Positions 30,469 through 48,076 of a stretch of DNA of 64,000 bases are shown here, piece after piece. The DNA is taken from contig NZ_CP026498.1 of assembly GCF_002953255.1 (NCBI RefSeq), positions 18,728 through 82,727 of the forward strand. Reading direction: 5' to 3'. Under the pieces are notes generated by a model. The model saw only the letters and a program-made list of their open reading frames with translations, was not told where the DNA came from and made no database searches. Source of the DNA: Streptomyces sp. CB01881. Its GTDB lineage: Bacteria > Actinomycetota > Actinomycetes > Streptomycetales > Streptomycetaceae. How positions within the stretch are numbered: the first letter of the stretch is position 1; every line of letters starts with the position of its first letter. A program made the translations under genes and the position numbers.

Positions 30469-31194
30469 TCAGGCGACGGCCATGGCCGGGAGCGGGCGCC
30501 AGGCGACGGGGACGTTGCGCATCACCAGGGCGCAGTCGAGGGTGGCACTGCCCGGGGGAAAACGGTCCGGGTCGTCGAAGAAGGACGACGCGGCGGAGCG
30601 GACGCGGCCCGCCTCGACGTGCCAGGCGCCGGTCCGCAGCTCCATTCCGTCCAGCCCGTGGTTCGCCCTGGTGGCCGACCAGCCCTTGGCACCGTCCTGG
30701 AAGAAGCGGGAGGCCTCCGCGAGGCCGGCGAAGAGGCTGCTGCCGTGCAGTTCGTCGACCAGGTCGACGGTGACGTCCGCCCGGGCGGCACCGTCCCGGG
30801 TCGCGAAGGCGACGTGCACACGGTCGGCCGTCTCGTGGACGTCGAAGTCGGCCCGGCCGTACTCCCCGGGGAAGATCCGGCCGCCGGCCCAGGCGTTGAC
30901 CCGCGAGGCGGTGTCGCGGCGCGGGATGTAGACGCCGGTCTCGGTGCCGTCCGGCCCGTCCCACTCGACGGCGATCCGGTGGGCCGCGTTCTCGCTGCGC
31001 AGCCCGAACGCCCGGGGCGCCCAGCCCGGCCGGACTCCGCCCAGCCGCAGCAGGCAGATCCCCGCGACCGCGTGACCGTTCACCAGCTGCGGGCGCAGCC
31101 CGCCGGGGAGCAGGCGGGCGGCGGCCTCCGGGGCGATCCGGTAGTTCACCAGCAGCCGGCGTTCGACGACGCTGGACAGGTTCGGTTGTCTCAT
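30469..31194 (-). CDS. DUF2071 family protein
   Basis: The 241-residue protein matches DUF2071, an acetoacetate-decarboxylase-like fold: RRLLVNYRIAPEAAARLLPG, GICLLRLGGVRPGWAPRAFG, VYIPRRDTASRVNAWAGGRI and FFDDPDRFPPGSATLDCALV. The ATG at 31194 overlaps the stop of the ArsR gene by 4 bases (ATGA), so the two are translationally coupled and probably co-regulated. The reaction is unknown. A second, more distant DUF2071 protein lies at 45961. Confidence 0.8.
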   Translation of the reverse strand: MRQPNLSSVVERRLLVNYRIAPEAAARLLPGGLRPQLVNGHAVAGICLLRLGGVRPGWAPRAFGLRSENAAHRIAVEWDGPDGTETGVYIPRRDTASRVNAWAGGRIFPGEYGRADFDVHETADRVHVAFATRDGAARADVTVDLVDELHGSSLFAGLAEASRFFQDGAKGWSATRANHGLDGMELRTGAWHVEAGRVRSAASSFFDDPDRFPPGSATLDCALVMRNVPVAWRPLPAMAVA

Positions 31195-31523
31195 GCCCCC
31201 TCCTTCTGAGCACCTGAGCGCCACTTGGTGTGGCGCAGCACGATCTGCTCGGGGCAGACGGCGCTGAGGAAGCGGCCGACGGAGGTCGCCAGGCGCTCCT
31301 CGACGAGCGAGTAGAGGATGCGGTTGCCGTCCCGGCGTTCGGTGATCAGCCCGGCCCCCTTGAGCACGCCGAGGTGGCGGGAGACGGAGGGTGCGCTGAT
31401 CGGGAACCGGGCCGCGATCTCGCCGGCTGCCAGCTCCCCGCCCCGGAGGTCCTCCAGGATCTGACGCCTGGTCGGGTCGGCGAGTGCGCGGAAGACGCCC
31501 GCGTCGTCCTGAGCTTCTGTCAC
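31191..31523 (-). CDS. ArsR-family winged-helix transcriptional regulator
   Basis: This is a 110-residue repressor with FRALADPTRRQILEDLRGGE, then a helix-turn-helix AAGEIAARFPISAPSVSRHL and wing KGAGLITERRDGNRILYSL. No ArsR/SmtB metal-binding cysteine pair is visible; the only Cys is near the C-terminus (AVCPEQ). It therefore may sense a non-metal signal or simply repress its own operon. It is the first gene of an operon with the DUF2071 gene, and an inverted repeat sits just upstream. Confidence 0.88.
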   Translation of the reverse strand: MTEAQDDAGVFRALADPTRRQILEDLRGGELAAGEIAARFPISAPSVSRHLGVLKGAGLITERRDGNRILYSLVEERLATSVGRFLSAVCPEQIVLRHTKWRSGAQKEGA

Positions 31524-40621: not shown

Positions 40622-43594
40622 ATGCCCCACGAGCAGCCCTCCGGCGTCGACTTCTTCGCCCGCAAGGCCCTGCCCGCTCCGCGCGTGAGCGGGTCGGACG
40701 CGCGCCGCATCGCCGCCGAACACTTCGGGCTCACCGTGCACGCCGACGTCCTCGGCAGCCAGCAGGACACCAACTTCCTGCTGCGCCAGGGCGACGGCGG
40801 CACGGCCGTCGCCGTGCTCAAGATCGCCAATCCGGCGTTCAGTGCGACCGAGACGGCGGCGCAGGACGCCGCCGCCGACCTGGTCGCCGAGGCGCACCCC
40901 GGGCTGCGGGTGGCGACCGTCCTGCGCGACCCCGCGGGGGCCCGGCGGGTGGCCACCGTCGTCACCGAGGACGGGCCGGTCACCGCGCGGCTGCTGCGCT
41001 TCCTGCCGGGCGGAGCCCTCTCCGGGCCCCGTCACCTGTCCCCGCGGACGGTGTCGGCCATGGGCTCCATCGCCGGCCGGGTCGCCACGACGCTCCGCGA
41101 CTTCCGCCACCCCGGGCTGGAGCGGGTCCTGCAGTGGGACCCGCAGTACGCCGACCGGGTCGTCGGCGGCCTGCTCCACCACGTCGCCGAGGCGGACCGG
41201 CGCGCCGCCGTGGAGGCCGCCACGGCCGGGGCCTGGGCGGGGCTCGGCGAGGTCCGCGACGCGCTGCCCCGGCAGGCCGTGCACCTCGACCTCACCGACG
41301 ACAACCTGGTCCGCTCGCCGGGCAGCCGAGCCGGCCTCCCCGACGGGATCATCGACTTCGGCGACCTGACGCACAGTTGGGCGGTCGCCGAGCTCGCCGT
41401 GTGCCTGTCCTCCGTGCTGCACCACGTCGGCGCGGAGCCGCACCACGTCCTGCCCGCCGTGCGGGCCTTCCACGCCGTGCGCCCGCTGTTCGCCGAGGAG
41501 GCGGCGGCGCTGTGGCCGCTGGTCGTGCTGCGGGCGGCCGCGCTGGTCGTCAGCGGCCGCCAGCAGGCCGACATCGACGGCGACAACGCCTACGTCAACG
41601 CGGCACTCGCCGGCGAGTGGCGGATCTTCGAGCAGGCCGTCTCGGTGCCGTCCGCGGTGATGGCGGGCCTGGTCGCCGACGCGCTCGGCCTCCCCTCGCG
41701 ACCGGCCCCCTCGCTACCCGTCGGCCGTCCGCTGGTGCCGGGCCTCGCCCCGGACGGGATCGCCCTGCTCGACCTGTCGACGGAGGCCGACGCCATGGAC
41801 CACGGCGCCTGGCTGGAGGCCGGCGCCGAGGGCCGGCTCGCGGCCGACCTGCTCGCCCAGGGCAGCGCCGCCGTCGCGACCCGGTACGGTCGGCCGCGGC
41901 TCACCGCCGCCACCCCGTTGTCCGCCGACTCCCCCGCGACCGTCGCGACGGGGGTCGACCTCTGGTTGGGCGGCGCGGCCGGCCTCCAGGCGCCCCGCGA
42001 CGGCGAGGTGCTCGCCGCCTCGCCCGGCCGGGCGACCATCGGCTGCGGCCTCCACCTGCTGGACGTCTCCTGGGACGGCCCGGCCGCCCCCGGGGTGCGC
42101 GCCGGCGAACCCCTGCGTGCCGGCGACCCGCTGGCGGCCCTGCCCGCCGGGACGCGCGTGCACCTCGCGCTGCGGCGCCGGCAGAGCCCCGAGGTGCCCG
42201 CCCTGGTGCGGCCCGAGTACGCGGCCGGCTGGCTCGCCCTGACCGCCGATCCCGCCGGACTCCTCGGCCTGCCGGCCACCACCGGCACAACCTCGTCGGC
42301 GGAGCTGCTCGGCCGGCGCGACGCCTCCTTCGCCGGCGTGCAGGAGCACTACTACGACGACCCGCCGCGCATCGAACGCGGCTGGCGGCACCACCTGGTG
42401 TCCACCGACGGCCGGGTCTACCTCGACATCGTCAACAACGTCACGCCGCTCGGCCATGCGCACCCGCGCGTGGAGCAGGCCGTGTCCCGGCAGTTGCGAC
42501 GGCTGAACACCAACTCGCGGTTCCACTACGCCTCGGTGGTGGAGTTCACCGAGCGGCTGGCCGCCCTGCTGCCCGAACCGCTCGACACGGTGTTCCTGGT
42601 CAACTCGGGCTCCGAGGCGGTCGACCTGGCCCTGCGGCTGGCCATCGGTGCCACCGGCCGCCACGACGTCGTGGCGCTCCGCGAGGCCTACCACGGCTGG
42701 ACGTACGCCTCGGACGCCGTCTCCACCTCGGTGGCCGACAATCCCAACGCGCTGACCAGCCGCCCGGCCTGGGTCCACACCGTGGACTCGCCCAACCCGT
42801 ACCGCGGTCGTCACCGCGGCACCGACGCCACCGCGTACGCGGGCGACGCGGTGCGGGTCGTCGACGACCTCGCGGCGTCCGGCCGGGCACCCGGCGCCTT
42901 CGTCTCGGAGTCCTTCTACGGCAACGCCGGAGCGGTGGCCCTGCCCGACGGCTACCTCCGGCAGGTGTACGCGGCGGTGCGGCGCCACGGCGGTCTGACG
43001 ATCGCGGACGAGATCCAGGTCGGGTACGGCCGGCTCGGCAGCTGGTTCTGGGGGTTCGAGCAGCAGGGCGTGGTGCCCGACATCGTGACGGTGGCCAAGG
43101 CCATGGGCAACGGCCACCCGCTGGGCGCCGTCATCACCTCGCGGGCGGTCGCCGACCGCTACCGCGACCAGGGCTACTTCTTCTCCTCCACCGGGGGCAG
43201 CCCCGTCTCCAGCATCGCCGGCCTCACCGTCCTCGACACCCTGCGGGACGAGGACCTCCAGGGCAACGCGCTGCGCGTCGGCACCCACCTGCGCGACCGG
43301 CTCCGGGCCCTCGCGGACCGCCACCCCGTCATCGGCGCCGTCCACGGCGCGGGCCTCTACCTGGGCGTCGAGCTCGTCCGCGACCGCGTCACCCTCGAAC
43401 CCGCCCCCGAGGAGACGGCGGAGCTCTGCGACCGGATGCTCGAACTGGGCGTCGTCGTCCAGCCCACCGGGGACCACCTCAACGTCCTCAAAATCAAGCC
43501 GCCGCTGTGCATCGACCGCGCGGCCGCCGACTTCTTCGCCGACATGCTCGACCGCGCCCTCACCGAACTCTCCCCGGGCCCGCGCGGGCACTGA
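40622..43594 (+). CDS. APH-like kinase / barrel domain / class-III aminotransferase-fold fusion
   Basis: The 990-residue protein joins three modules. Residues about 30-350 are an APH/homoserine-kinase-like fold (H221-L-D-L-T-D-D-N catalytic loop, then IIDFGDLTHS). Residues about 430-555 resemble an M23/lipoyl-type beta barrel. Residues about 575-985 are a class-III PLP enzyme: VFLVNSGSEAVDLALRLA, GLTIADEIQVGYGRLG, and Schiff-base Lys K826 in VTVAKAMGNGHPLG. The layout matches kinase-phospholyase fusions related to human hydroxylysine kinase and phosphohydroxylysine phospho-lyase: phosphorylate an amino-alcohol, then eliminate phosphate. The substrate is inferred only. The Lrp gene upstream fits amino-acid control. 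Confidence 0.85.
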   Translation: MPHEQPSGVDFFARKALPAPRVSGSDARRIAAEHFGLTVHADVLGSQQDTNFLLRQGDGGTAVAVLKIANPAFSATETAAQDAAADLVAEAHPGLRVATVLRDPAGARRVATVVTEDGPVTARLLRFLPGGALSGPRHLSPRTVSAMGSIAGRVATTLRDFRHPGLERVLQWDPQYADRVVGGLLHHVAEADRRAAVEAATAGAWAGLGEVRDALPRQAVHLDLTDDNLVRSPGSRAGLPDGIIDFGDLTHSWAVAELAVCLSSVLHHVGAEPHHVLPAVRAFHAVRPLFAEEAAALWPLVVLRAAALVVSGRQQADIDGDNAYVNAALAGEWRIFEQAVSVPSAVMAGLVADALGLPSRPAPSLPVGRPLVPGLAPDGIALLDLSTEADAMDHGAWLEAGAEGRLAADLLAQGSAAVATRYGRPRLTAATPLSADSPATVATGVDLWLGGAAGLQAPRDGEVLAASPGRATIGCGLHLLDVSWDGPAAPGVRAGEPLRAGDPLAALPAGTRVHLALRRRQSPEVPALVRPEYAAGWLALTADPAGLLGLPATTGTTSSAELLGRRDASFAGVQEHYYDDPPRIERGWRHHLVSTDGRVYLDIVNNVTPLGHAHPRVEQAVSRQLRRLNTNSRFHYASVVEFTERLAALLPEPLDTVFLVNSGSEAVDLALRLAIGATGRHDVVALREAYHGWTYASDAVSTSVADNPNALTSRPAWVHTVDSPNPYRGRHRGTDATAYAGDAVRVVDDLAASGRAPGAFVSESFYGNAGAVALPDGYLRQVYAAVRRHGGLTIADEIQVGYGRLGSWFWGFEQQGVVPDIVTVAKAMGNGHPLGAVITSRAVADRYRDQGYFFSSTGGSPVSSIAGLTVLDTLRDEDLQGNALRVGTHLRDRLRALADRHPVIGAVHGAGLYLGVELVRDRVTLEPAPEETAELCDRMLELGVVVQPTGDHLNVLKIKPPLCIDRAAADFFADMLDRALTELSPGPRGH

Positions 43595-43944
43595 CCGCCC
43601 GGCGCCGGAAGCTCAGGACCAGGGCGAGGACCCGGCCGAAGTTCAGCCAGTACGTCGACCCTCCGGCGGACGTCCTCGCGGCGCTCACCCGGCTGGCACT
43701 CGGCGCCACGGCGGGCCGGCTGTTCCACTCGCAGCTCACGGGGGTCTACGCAGCCGTCGTCGTCGGGGCCTCGGCCCCCGCCCTCCTCAGTCAACTGGGC
43801 GCGGCCCGAACGGTCCCCGGCGCCCTGGAGACCCCCGGGGAGTCCGCCGACGCGGCACCGTCGGCCGGACAGGGCGTCAGGCCGGATTCGGGCGGGCCTG
43901 CTACGGGCAGGCCGGATGGCACGGTCGGCAATCACCTGCCCGCC

Positions 43945-44280
43945 ATGCCTCCGACCCGCACTCCGAGCGGGAAGTCCGCGTCCTTCCGGCTGGGGCTCTC
44001 CACCGAGGCAATGCTCGGCTCGCTGCCGACCGGACAGGGCACGCGGACGGCGGTCGCGGTCCCCTCCGACAGAGAGCTACTGGACGCCGTGCACCGGCTC
44101 GAACCTCAGCAGCAGGAATGCGTCACCCTCCGTTTCCTCCAGGGCCTGCCGGTCGCCCAGACGGCGAAGATCATGGGCAGGACCGTCAGTGCGATCAAGC
44201 GGCTTCAGTACCGCGCCGTCCGCACCCTCGCCCGCATGGTCGACGGGATCGCGAGCGCCGAGGCCGCGCCACAGCTCTGA
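43945..44280 (+). pseudogene. Orphan sigma-factor region 4
   Basis: From about ATG 43945 (MPPTRTPSGKSASFRLGLST) the frame ends in LLDAVHRLEPQQQECVTLRF, LQGLPVAQTAKIMGRTVSAI and KRLQYRAVRTLARM, a clear ECF sigma region 4. Region 2, which binds core polymerase and -10 DNA, is absent. Upstream (43595-43944) the same frame gives only degenerate sequence. It is probably the remains of an ECF sigma gene, or a stand-alone region-4 regulator. Confidence 0.55.
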
Positions 44281-44368: not shown

Positions 44369-44382
44369 TTGAACATGTTCAA
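44369..44382. promoter_or_regulatory. Perfect 14-bp palindrome, likely operator of the 44.5-48 kb operon
   Basis: TTGAACATGTTCAA is fully symmetric, 130 bases before the first gene of a five-gene operon, and AT-rich in a very GC-rich context. The size suits a dimeric TetR or MarR regulator, but none is encoded nearby. Confidence 0.6.
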
Positions 44383-44511
44383 ACGAGTGCGCCATGATGA
44401 TCGCGAGCGGGAGCGACCGGCCCCGAGCACGGGCGCCGGGCCGCCTCGCCGTACCCCGCCGCGCCCCGGTGCACGCCCCTGCCCGGGCGGCGGCAGAAAG
44501 GACCGTCCGCC

Positions 44512-44928
44512 GTGCCGACAACCTGGCAGAGCCGCTGCGCCGCCCTCGCGATCGCACTGATGTGGGGGTACGAGGGCCTCTGGTGCAAGATCTTCCCCGG
44601 CCGCGCCGACCAGCGGGCCATCGTCGAGGGCCTGCCGTTGCTGTCCGAGGGCGCCGCCACCGTGCTGCTCGTCGCCATCGGCCTGGCCGAACTGGCCCTC
44701 GGCGCCTGGGTGCTGAGCGGGCGCCGGCGCCGGCTCGCCGCGCTGGTGCAGACCGTGCTGGTGGTCGGCTTCAACACCGGCGGGCTGCTCGTCGGGGCCG
44801 ACCACATCCCCGAGCCGGGCCGGCTCGTCGTCCAGGACCTGGCCTTCCTCGCCCTGATCTGGACGGTCGCCGCCGAACGCCCGGCACTCGCGGCCGCGCC
44901 CGCGCACCCCGTGGCGGCCGCCGTATGA
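44512..44928 (+). CDS. DoxX-like integral membrane protein
   Basis: The 138-residue protein starts at GTG 44512 (MPTTWQSRCAALAIALMWGY) with AAAGGA upstream. Four membrane segments fit the DoxX-like (DoxX_3) family: IALMWGYEGLWCKIFPGR, LLSEGAATVLLVAIGLAELA, RLAALVQTVLVVGFNTGGLL and LVVQDLAFLALIWTVAAE. The family often sits with lipid or redox modification genes. It opens a five-gene operon and overlaps the next gene by 4 bases (ATGA). Confidence 0.85.
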   Translation: MPTTWQSRCAALAIALMWGYEGLWCKIFPGRADQRAIVEGLPLLSEGAATVLLVAIGLAELALGAWVLSGRRRRLAALVQTVLVVGFNTGGLLVGADHIPEPGRLVVQDLAFLALIWTVAAERPALAAAPAHPVAAAV

Positions 44929-45926
44929 CCGCCCGCACCACCGCCCGCACCACCGCCCGCGCGGGCACCCCGTGGGCCGAGGGCCGGCTGCTCACCGTCC
45001 AGCCCCGGCAGCCGCGCGTCCTGTTCGGCCGGATGTACGAGGACCCGGCGGTCGAGCTCGCCGCCTTCCCGCCGCCCGCGGCCCGGGTGCTCTGCATCGC
45101 CTCGGCCGGGGACACCGCCGCCGCGCTCGCCGCCGCCGGCTACGAGGTCACGGCCGTCGACCTCAACCCCGCCCAGCTCGACTACGCCCGCGGCCGGCTC
45201 CAGGCCGGAGCACCGGCCGTCCCCGGCTCGGCCGAGCGCCTGCTCGCCACCGGCCGCGCCGCCGTCGGCACGCTGCTGCCCGCCTGGCGCCCGTCCGCAC
45301 TGGAGCGGTTCCTGCGCCTGGACGACCCCGCCGAGCAGGCCCGGCACTGGCGGCGCACGCTCGACGGCCCCGGTCTGCGGCTGTTCCTCGCCGCCTCGCT
45401 CCGGCCCGCCGGAGCCCTGGCCGTCGGGCTGCGGCCGCCCTTCCGCGGCGTCGTGCCGGAGCGCTTCGACGCCGTGCTGCGCGTCCGGCTCGCCCGTGGC
45501 TTCGCCCGGCACCCCAACGCCGCCAACCCCTGGGCCTGGCGGCTGCTGCTCGGCCGCGAGCTGCCCGGAGGCGAACCTCGTGGGCGTGACCTGGTCGGGC
45601 CTGACCTGCCCGGACGTGACCTGCCCGGTGGTGGGGCGGCCACGGCCGGACCGGCCCAGGGGACCGTCCGGCTGCTCGCCGGGGACGTCGTCGACCACCT
45701 GGAGCGCTCCCCGGCCGGCCACTACGACGCGGTGACGCTCTCCAACGTCCTGGACGGGCCCGGCCCCGAGTTCGCCCGGCGGTTGCGCGCCGCCGTCCGG
45801 CACGCCGTGCGGCCCGGCGGGGTCGCCGTCCTGCGCAGCATCCGCGAGCCGGGCCCCGCCGGCCCCGGCGCCGCCGCCGAGGACCGCTCACTGCTGTGGG
45901 GCGTCGTCCGGGTGGTCCGGCCATGA
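44925..45926 (+). CDS. DUF3419 / BtaA-like SAM-dependent 3-amino-3-carboxypropyl transferase
   Basis: The 333-residue protein shows the DUF3419 pattern: a start region with LFGRMYEDPAVELAAF, motif I variant VLCIASAGDTAAALAAAGYE, motif II VTAVDLNPAQLDYARGRLQ, and a long helical middle with LRLFLAASLRPAGALAVGLR. In BtaA the family transfers the aminocarboxypropyl group of SAM to diacylglycerol, the first step of betaine lipid synthesis. A Pro/Gly/Arg insert (GRDLVGPDLPGRDLPGGG) is coded by short DNA repeats at 45575-45635. The substrate here is unproven. It overlaps the DoxX-like gene by 4 bases. Confidence 0.75.
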   Translation: MTARTTARTTARAGTPWAEGRLLTVQPRQPRVLFGRMYEDPAVELAAFPPPAARVLCIASAGDTAAALAAAGYEVTAVDLNPAQLDYARGRLQAGAPAVPGSAERLLATGRAAVGTLLPAWRPSALERFLRLDDPAEQARHWRRTLDGPGLRLFLAASLRPAGALAVGLRPPFRGVVPERFDAVLRVRLARGFARHPNAANPWAWRLLLGRELPGGEPRGRDLVGPDLPGRDLPGGGAATAGPAQGTVRLLAGDVVDHLERSPAGHYDAVTLSNVLDGPGPEFARRLRAAVRHAVRPGGVAVLRSIREPGPAGPGAAAEDRSLLWGVVRVVRP

Positions 45927-45960
45927 ACCCCGCCCGCCCCGCCTCCCGAAGGGCCTGACC

Positions 45961-46740
45961 GTGCGCCACCTGCTGCAACGCCACCCCCTCCCGATGCGCA
46001 CCCACTTCGCGCACTCGCTCGTCCTCACCTACGCGCTGCCGCCCGAGCGGCTGGAGCCGCTGGTACCGCCGGGGCTCATCCTGGACACGTACACCGATCC
46101 CGGCGGCACCGAGCACGGCTTCGTCGCGGCCGCCGTGGTGGACGCCCGCGGCCTGCGCCCGGCCGGGTTGCCGGCCCGGCTCGGCGCGGACTGCGTGCTC
46201 ACCGGTTACCGGGTGTTCACCCGCTTCCCCACCCCCGGCGGCCGGACCATGCGCGGCCTGCGCATCCTGCGCAGCGACACCAGCCACCGGCTGATGGTCG
46301 CGGGCGGCAACCTGTTCTCCCGCTACCACTACCGGCTCGCCCGGATCGGCAGCCGGGTCGTCGGCTCGACGCTGGAGTTCAAGGTGCGCAGCGCCGACGG
46401 CCTGGCCGACCTGCACGTCCGGGCCGACCTGGCGGGCGGCCCGGCGCCGCTGCCGCCCGGCAGCCCGTTCGCCGACGCCCGAGCCGCCCGCCGGTTCGCC
46501 GGGCCCCTGCCCTACACCTTTGAGTACGAGCCGCAGACCCAGTCGATGATCGTCGTCAAGGCCGTCCGCGCCCACTGGGAGCCGGTGCCGGTCTCGGTGG
46601 AGGTGCCGCGGCTGACGTTCTTCGACCACGGCCCACTGGCCGGCAGCCGGCCCGTACTCGCCAACGCCTTCCACGTCGCGGACCTCGACTACGGGTGGCA
46701 GGCGGGCAGCCGCCGCGCCCTCGACGGGGGAATCCGGTGA
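45961..46740 (+). CDS. DUF2071-family protein
   Basis: The 259-residue protein is read from GTG 45961, with GAAGGG upstream. Its acetoacetate-decarboxylase-like fold is shown by PMRTHFAHSLVLTYALPPER, LVPPGLILDTYTDPGGTEHG, VLTGYRVFTRFPTPGGRTMR and a late strand LTFFDHGPLAGSRPVLANAF. It is more divergent than the copy at 30469. Genes on both sides are overlapped or closely spaced, so it belongs to the operon. The enzymatic role is unknown; DUF2071 proteins may act as decarboxylases or lyases. Confidence 0.75.
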   Translation: MRHLLQRHPLPMRTHFAHSLVLTYALPPERLEPLVPPGLILDTYTDPGGTEHGFVAAAVVDARGLRPAGLPARLGADCVLTGYRVFTRFPTPGGRTMRGLRILRSDTSHRLMVAGGNLFSRYHYRLARIGSRVVGSTLEFKVRSADGLADLHVRADLAGGPAPLPPGSPFADARAARRFAGPLPYTFEYEPQTQSMIVVKAVRAHWEPVPVSVEVPRLTFFDHGPLAGSRPVLANAFHVADLDYGWQAGSRRALDGGIR

Positions 46741-47657
46741 GCGGTGTCCGCCCGGTGGGCCGGGAGCCGCACGAGGTCCGTCCGCAGGAGCCTGCCGGCA
46801 CCGAGGCCAGCGCGCCCGGCGCGGCCGCCGAGGCCGTGAGCACCGCCGGATCCGCGAGCGCAGGCGGATCCGCGAACGCAGCCGGTCCCACGGTGACCGA
46901 TGCCGGCCGGCCCCACCGTCCGTCCGGGGTGCGCGAGGTGGTCGGCTACAACTGGCCGCTGTACGCCGCCGGGGCTCTCGCGGCCGGCGGGGGCTGGGTG
47001 CTGGCCCGGTGGCTGCCCCGCCCGGCGGCCCGGCTCGTCCGGGCGGGCGCGCTCACGGCGGGTTGGCTGCTCGCCGCAAGCACCGCCGCCACCTGGTGGG
47101 TCTACGACCGCTCCGGACTCCACGGCTACGCCTGGCTCGACGACCTCCTGCCGGAGGGGCCCGGCCGGCATCTCGTGGTCGCCACGGGCCTCGACGAGGC
47201 CAGCCGGCCCGTCGCGGCACGCCACCCGGCCGCGCCCCAGCGAACCGCGGACCTGTACGACCCGGCGCTGATGACGGAGGGCTCGATCCACCGGGCGCGC
47301 CGCCGGGTGCCGCCGGTGCCCGGCAGCCTGCCCGCCCGGCCGGGGGCGCTGCCCGCCGCGACCGCCTCACTGGACTCCGTGCTCGCCGTGTTCTCGGCCC
47401 ACGAGCTGCGCCGGCCCGCGGACCGCGCCGCGCTGTTCGCCGAGGCGGCCAGGGTGCTGCGGCCCGGGGGTGCGTTCGTCGTGGTCGAGCACCTGCGCGA
47501 CGCCGCGAACTCCGCCGTCTACGGTCCCGGCGCCCTGCACTTCCTGCCGCGCTCCACCTGGCTCGGCCATGCCGCCGGGGCGGGCCTGCGCCCGGCGGCG
47601 GAGCGGCGGATCGCCGGCCTGGTCACCGCGTTCGTGTTCCGGCGGGCCGGGGCATGA
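46737..47657 (+). CDS. Membrane-anchored class I methyltransferase-like protein
   Basis: The 306-residue protein starts at a GTG that overlaps the previous stop (GTGA). An Ala/Gly-rich 55-residue N-terminus is followed by two hydrophobic segments (WPLYAAGALAAGGGWVLARW and LVRAGALTAGWLLAASTAA). The rest is a class I methyltransferase: LVVATGLDEASRPVAARHP in place of the usual G-x-G-x-G loop, LDSVLAVFSAHELRRPADRA, and VLRPGGAFVVVEHLRDAANS. The weak SAM loop is odd but the later motifs are good. It could be the BtaB-like partner of the DUF3419 protein. Confidence 0.7.
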   Translation: MSGVRPVGREPHEVRPQEPAGTEASAPGAAAEAVSTAGSASAGGSANAAGPTVTDAGRPHRPSGVREVVGYNWPLYAAGALAAGGGWVLARWLPRPAARLVRAGALTAGWLLAASTAATWWVYDRSGLHGYAWLDDLLPEGPGRHLVVATGLDEASRPVAARHPAAPQRTADLYDPALMTEGSIHRARRRVPPVPGSLPARPGALPAATASLDSVLAVFSAHELRRPADRAALFAEAARVLRPGGAFVVVEHLRDAANSAVYGPGALHFLPRSTWLGHAAGAGLRPAAERRIAGLVTAFVFRRAGA

Positions 47658-48076
47658 ACGGACTCCTCGACCTGGCTGTGCAGTTGCGGCTCGTCGGCGC
47701 CGTGCTGGTGGGCGTCGGCCTGTTCCACGCGGCGCTGCCGCGCGTGATCGGATGGCCGGCCGACCTGGACGGGACCACGCTGATGACCCGTCGGGTCTCC
47801 TGGGCGCACCTCTTCTTCATCGGCCTGACCTGCGTGCTGCTGGGCCTGCTGCCGCTCCTGCTGGCCGGCGAGCTCCTCGCGGGCACGCCGCTGGGCACCG
47901 CGCTGCTGGCCGGCCAGACGGTCTTCTGGGGTGCCCGGTGGCTCTTCCAGTTCACCGTGTTCCCGTCCCGGCTCTGGCGCGGCGACCCGCTTCGCACCCT
48001 GGGCCACGTCGCGTTCGCGGTGCTGTGGACGTGGGTGACGGTGGTGTTCGCGTGCGCGCTGTGGCGGGTGCTGTAG
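47654..48076 (+). CDS. Small integral membrane protein, last gene of operon
   Basis: The 140-residue protein starts at an ATG overlapping the previous stop (ATGA). Four membrane segments (about residues 8-25, 45-68, 75-90 and 112-135) have conserved-looking charged turns, such as ALPRVIGWPADLDGTTLMTR and FTVFPSRLWRGDPLRTLGH. The family is not recognised. It completes the operon and could anchor or shuttle a lipid-linked intermediate. Confidence 0.75.
   Translation: MNGLLDLAVQLRLVGAVLVGVGLFHAALPRVIGWPADLDGTTLMTRRVSWAHLFFIGLTCVLLGLLPLLLAGELLAGTPLGTALLAGQTVFWGARWLFQFTVFPSRLWRGDPLRTLGHVAFAVLWTWVTVVFACALWRVL

Follow-up and report, generated by a model that had tools for sequence, protein, structure and literature searches.

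In bacteria, the two steps of betaine-lipid synthesis are carried out by BtaA and BtaB (PMC10685587), and this DGTS pathway, found in rhizobia and Rhodobacter, is among the closest described counterparts of the locus presented here. In Streptomyces, ornithine lipids are the common lipids that lack phosphorus (PMC7937720). Another point of comparison is RquA of rhodoquinone synthesis, a membrane-associated methyltransferase-fold enzyme with disrupted S-adenosylmethionine (SAM) motifs, which performs other SAM chemistry at the membrane (PMC9814641). We analyzed a stretch of 64,000 nucleotides from Streptomyces sp. CB01881 (the window), which contains a cassette of five genes in the order DoxX_3, BtaA-like (DUF3419), DUF2071, methyltransferase fold, and 4-TM protein. 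To our knowledge, the functions of DUF2071, DoxX_3, and most DUF3419 proteins are not known. Every enzyme part of the cassette comes from a known family, and the combination is undescribed in the literature searched, where no paper joined DUF2071, DUF3419, and DoxX. This agrees with an earlier note on this DNA, which knew of no described system with this gene set.

The five open frames lie on the forward strand at 44512-44928, 44925-45926, 45961-46740, 46737-47657, and 47654-48076 (genes 1 to 5, encoding proteins P0001 to P0005). Overlaps of 4 bp were read at 44925 (ATGA), 46737 (GTGA), and 47654 (ATGA), and genes 2 and 3 are separated by a 34-bp gap, where several relatives (e.g., L041 and L042) have a 4-bp overlap. 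The starts and overlaps of the operon given in the earlier note were all confirmed in the sequence. The chromosome is Kitasatospora-like and 11.3 Mb long, and the contig ends about 63 kb away from the cassette. Two neighbors, a sigma-like ORF upstream and a DUF4360 gene downstream, were excluded from the operon, as neither accompanies any other cassette. The only domain recognized in the sigma-like ORF, at 43600-44280 (+), is sigma-70 region 4 (Pfam, 48 bits). Further upstream, a 990-residue protein at 40622-43594 (+) has a C-terminal class III aminotransferase domain as its sole Pfam match; its long N-terminal part appears kinase-like by reading (HLDLTDDN), and an AsnC/Lrp-like gene precedes it.

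The product of gene 2 (44925-45926) matched PF11899 with 42.4 bits (gathering cut-off, 28.2), the aligned part covering residues 34 to 86 only. Its relatives scored 48.7 to 64 bits against DUF3419, and two rhizobial reference proteins scored 381 to 382 bits. These references were fetched with a short query composed from known BtaA-family motifs and used as bait only; it led to an intact rhizobial DUF3419 protein whose gene adjoins one for a BtaB-like methyltransferase (L144) and to a second relative (L143). Both are presumed to be functional BtaA from their family scores and, for L144, from gene context. In a profile-profile comparison with hhalign, the gene 2 family aligned with rhizobial BtaA at a probability of 96.5 over 276 columns, which indicates homology along the whole chain and bears out the relationship to BtaA proposed earlier. 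In a joint alignment, gene 2 retained VDLNP (VDxNP), a conserved Gln, an Asp and an Arg that flank strand 5 (before and after it, respectively), and the C-terminal DRS, as well as residues that are invariant among the DUF3419 proteins in the comparison. The EDP motif and the N-x-x-W/Y region are also common to gene 2 and BtaA. Compared with BtaA, gene 2 is shorter by about 80 to 110 residues, a stretch of about 60 residues is missing from its central helical region, and LSNVLDG stands at the position of LLDxQDW (LLDAQDW), a region that is also variable in mycobacterial and other rhizobial DUF3419 proteins. Thus, loss of the BtaA active-site residues, which the earlier note had named as a possible objection, applies to the BtaA-specific residues in the alignment but not to those invariant in DUF3419. 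By these comparisons gene 2 is a true but divergent BtaA homolog; the retained DUF3419 residues, the missing central region, and the altered LLDxQDW therefore make it a divergent candidate 3-amino-3-carboxypropyl transferase. Among the rhizobial sequences, S. meliloti Ak57 carries an interrupted BtaA frame next to an intact methyltransferase gene (L141, 2303-3552), which reflects either a sequencing error or a real interruption.

Gene 4 (46737-47657) encodes a protein whose match to Methyltransf_11 reached 30.2 bits and covered the second half of the domain only. Its N-terminal 58 or so residues are of low complexity and unconserved, and the conserved core starts at about 46911. The GxGxG of motif I is absent, and all 11 relatives have an invariant GLDE in its place, together with YNWP-Y at the N-terminal helices and, after GLDE, the motifs VDLYDP, AHELR, LRPGG, and EHLRD. 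Modeling of both folds, as had been suggested, succeeded for this protein and not for gene 2: AlphaFold2 predicted a Rossmann methyltransferase fold (pLDDT, 72) with a two-helix N-terminal anchor, the helices being taken from this one model, whereas the gene 2 model was poor (pLDDT, 52.5), and fold comparison from that low-confidence model gave "methyltransferase fold" and no more. The best Foldseek match of the gene 4 model was 8ys9, a phosphatidylethanolamine N-methyltransferase (E value, 1.7e-7; TM-score, 0.44), with many class I methyltransferases close. Four of the 11 relatives weakly matched the ubiE/COQ5 family. Against the BtaB profile the probability was 6, and gene 4 was rejected as BtaB on account of this value, its two TM helices, and the replacement of the SAM glycine loop by GLDE. 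The suggestion that it completes a betaine lipid in the manner of BtaB was consequently not borne out, all the more as genes 3 to 5 also occur without a DUF3419 gene.

Gene 1 (44512-44928), present in all cassettes, encodes a small membrane protein of the DoxX_3 family (PF13781, 54.4 bits; gathering cut-off, 25). Gene 3 (45961-46740) belongs to DUF2071 (PF09844, 41.9 bits; gathering cut-off, 27; 11 of 11 relatives match), a family with an acetoacetate-decarboxylase-like fold. It shares with the DUF2071/YqjF family of the ADC-like clan a score above the Pfam cut-off but forms a distinct, highly conserved subtype, and it is the most conserved of the five genes. Gene 5 (47654-48076) encodes a conserved hydrophobic protein with about four TM helices predicted from sequence, for which Pfam has no family. 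A relationship to the DoxX_3 protein of gene 1 was rejected by profile comparison, and weak matches to DUF2065/DUF7533 were unconvincing. In NCBIfam, genes 2 and 4 matched only below the cut-off and genes 1, 3, and 5 had no family, while sequence searches of solved structures with genes 2, 3, and 4 returned generic methyltransferases or nothing. Judged from sequence and family, the proteins of genes 1, 4, and 5 are hydrophobic or membrane-anchored. A second, diverged DUF2071 gene is overlapped by an ArsR gene elsewhere in the window, at 30469-31523 (-).

The complete gene order was found in 20 loci, comprising 13 from Kitasatospora (including the window) and 7 from Streptomyces, one of which is on a linear plasmid. 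The 19 loci besides the window have identical gene order and orientation, with 60 to 88% protein identity; the search for this order in other actinomycetes that the earlier note had proposed was thus successful, and the possibility, also raised there, that the five genes are never conserved together is clearly false. In one of the 20 loci (L038), the frame of gene 4 is broken, and incomplete copies were also seen, in which gene 5 is missing (L036), gene 2 is truncated (L043), or the cassette is decaying (L044, L050, and L079). Of 70 Kitasatospora genomes, 17 have a close relative of gene 2. One of these is the genome of the window, and two of the 16 remaining ones carry remnants; a further two weak matches were left out of the count. 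For Streptomyces, the tally was 7 in 393 genomes, including a single remnant, plus one linear plasmid. A sample of 148 additional Actinobacteria yielded no PF11899 match, and a sample of 295 additional actinobacterial genomes yielded no gene 5. When the flanking genes were clustered, the cassette genes alone recurred generally, and any flanks held in common were confined to a few loci at a time, most of them closely related. Because the flanks are mostly unrelated and only the cassette genes recur, the cassette is a mobile unit, gained and lost at many sites, often on chromosome arms. Purifying selection acts on all five genes, with median pairwise dN/dS values of 0.30 to 0.34 for each, which are rough and probably too high given the extreme GC bias. 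Across the cassette loci, the distance matrices of the genes were correlated (r, 0.79 to 0.95).

The cassette is a joining of two separable units, module A (genes 1 and 2) and module B (genes 3 to 5). The module A pair was found without genes 3 to 5 on a contig of a deltaproteobacterial MAG (L033), with 49% identity for gene 1 and 44% for gene 2; a search of 197 additional genomes from the phylum of this MAG yielded no relatives of gene 2. Module B was found without genes 1 and 2 in at least seven loci, including Kitasatospora L134, L136, and L137, Streptomyces L138, and linear plasmids of S. lavendulae and S. yangpuensis. Gene 3 without genes 1 and 2 was also present in L133 and L135, both short contigs. 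An ArsR-type gene heads module B in L138 and on the linear plasmids. Since the two modules are found apart, the idea of an obligate BtaA/BtaB pair is weakened.

The modules have a promoter and operator candidate in common. Upstream of gene 1, a perfect palindrome, TTGAACATGTTCAA, lies at 44369-44382 (+) with TTGAAC in the -35 place, and a -10-like hexamer, CATGAT, follows 18 bp after TTGAAC at 44393-44398 (+). All 17 Kitasatospora cassettes and remnants carry the 14-bp palindrome TTGAACRYGTTCAA before gene 1, and all five Kitasatospora module B loci carry it before gene 3. Two of the seven Streptomyces cassettes have it, and the other five do not. In 15 loci totaling 258.8 kb, exactly one copy was found per locus, always at the promoter position. 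CATGAT follows TTGAAC by 17 to 18 bp in all Kitasatospora loci, with the single exception of a decaying copy that has CATGCT. A generic sigma-70 scan did not call the CATGAT promoter. Among 31 Kitasatospora genomes, each contained 1 to 10 copies of the palindrome, compared with 0 for the reversed control. The other copies lie beside a TetR_C_23 regulator and GNAT gene, a YndJ gene, another DUF2071 gene, an epimerase gene with DUF1731, and genes for small membrane proteins. The palindrome marks a small regulon that includes the TetR gene, YndJ, and a second DUF2071 gene. We propose from this adjacency that the TetR_C_23 protein represses the palindrome promoter, which would make it a candidate autoregulated repressor of the Kitasatospora regulon. 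The palindrome sequence was printed in no paper of the literature searched; its position at the -35 site of a conserved promoter and its marking of a regulon are new here. The locus with TetR_C_23, GNAT, and small membrane protein genes recurred with TTGAACRYGTTCAA in L148, L159, L175, L180, L190, L195, L201, L208, and L214, and paired palindromes about 45 bp apart precede a YndJ-like gene in L155, L158, L165, L192, L193, L207, and L210.

Our preferred explanation, which we hold tentatively, is that the locus is a repressor-controlled cassette of two co-opted modules acting on the cell membrane. Gene 4 would be a membrane-anchored methyltransferase-fold enzyme with altered chemistry, for which RquA is a precedent only, and would join the DUF2071 and 4-TM proteins in acting either on the membrane compound used by gene 2 or on a different one. 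Membrane or envelope stress would cause the TetR-type repressor to leave the promoter. Classical betaine-lipid synthesis would instead have gene 2 making diacylglyceryl-homoserine like BtaA and gene 4 trimethylating it like BtaB, the two proteins known to perform these steps in bacteria. The BtaA homology of gene 2 and the methyltransferase fold of gene 4, with its best match to a phosphatidylethanolamine N-methyltransferase, are consistent with such a route. However, gene 2 lacks the central segment and LLDxQDW of BtaA, and gene 4 is not BtaB and has GLDE for the glycine loop; a classical betaine lipid is therefore unlikely. Module B moreover exists without gene 2, three further genes of other families accompany the pair, and ornithine lipids fill the place of common phosphorus-free lipids in Streptomyces, so that we regard this route as highly improbable. 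Of the earlier proposal of a phosphorus-free lipid or another aminocarboxypropylated product, the second part survives. The cassette probably tailors some membrane molecule outside the standard betaine-lipid pathway, and our best guess is aminocarboxypropylation of that molecule; nothing in the sequence names a lipid.

The occurrence of module B without module A means that the two may not share a pathway. They could be two unrelated sets of stress genes under one promoter, with regulation and mobility in common, module B being an envelope-maintenance unit like the other DUF2071 and YndJ genes of the regulon. The separate occurrence of the modules and the operator sequence before those other genes point in this direction, as does the 81% identity between the ArsR proteins in front of module B and of a lone DUF2071 gene. 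But the modules, where joined, have remained so across 20 loci; their genes often overlap by 4 bp and diverge in a correlated manner, and we consider this explanation doubtful. Tailoring of a quinone or isoprenoid is less likely still; here gene 4 would be an RquA-like, membrane-bound, unusual SAM enzyme, and gene 2 would aminocarboxypropylate a prenyl lipid. In favor are the weak ubiE/COQ5 matches of four gene 4 relatives and the precedent of RquA, a membrane enzyme whose SAM motifs are likewise disrupted; on the other side, the substrate of RquA is ubiquinone, and weak UbiE matches are common to many class I methyltransferases. A more far-reaching reading, with an undescribed aminocarboxypropylated membrane or prenyl lipid, a membrane-bound methyltransferase-fold enzyme with non-methyl SAM chemistry, and a TetR-controlled membrane-stress regulon, seems unlikely at present.

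The cassette is present in a minority of closely related genomes, which provides natural strains with and without it as well as a defined operator. As a commonly regulated set, it ties orphan families together and could help assign several functions at once. The ArsR protein at 30469-31523 is 81% identical to the ArsR proteins heading genes 3 to 5 on the S. lavendulae plasmids, and a similar TTAGC-type operator lies upstream of it.

If the acceptor is not diacylglycerol, BtaA-type enzymes would have been reused outside betaine-lipid synthesis. Divergent DUF3419 enzymes recruited away from BtaB were also seen in mycobacteria, where LSNxLD stands for LLDxQD, and in Rhizobium/Shinella; both sets differ from the cassette in their partner genes, and DoxX_3, DUF2071, methyltransferase-fold, and 4-TM proteins were not seen in them. 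In mycobacteria, the DUF3419 gene adjoins genes for an iron-containing redox enzyme and a GNAT protein, with no BtaB (L080, 7023-8144; L140, 6153-8870). In Rhizobium/Shinella, it lies beside CoF-synthetase-like genes and a gene for an uncharacterized downstream protein (L142, 2420-4583; L145, 1111-4583), which may form a biosynthetic cluster.
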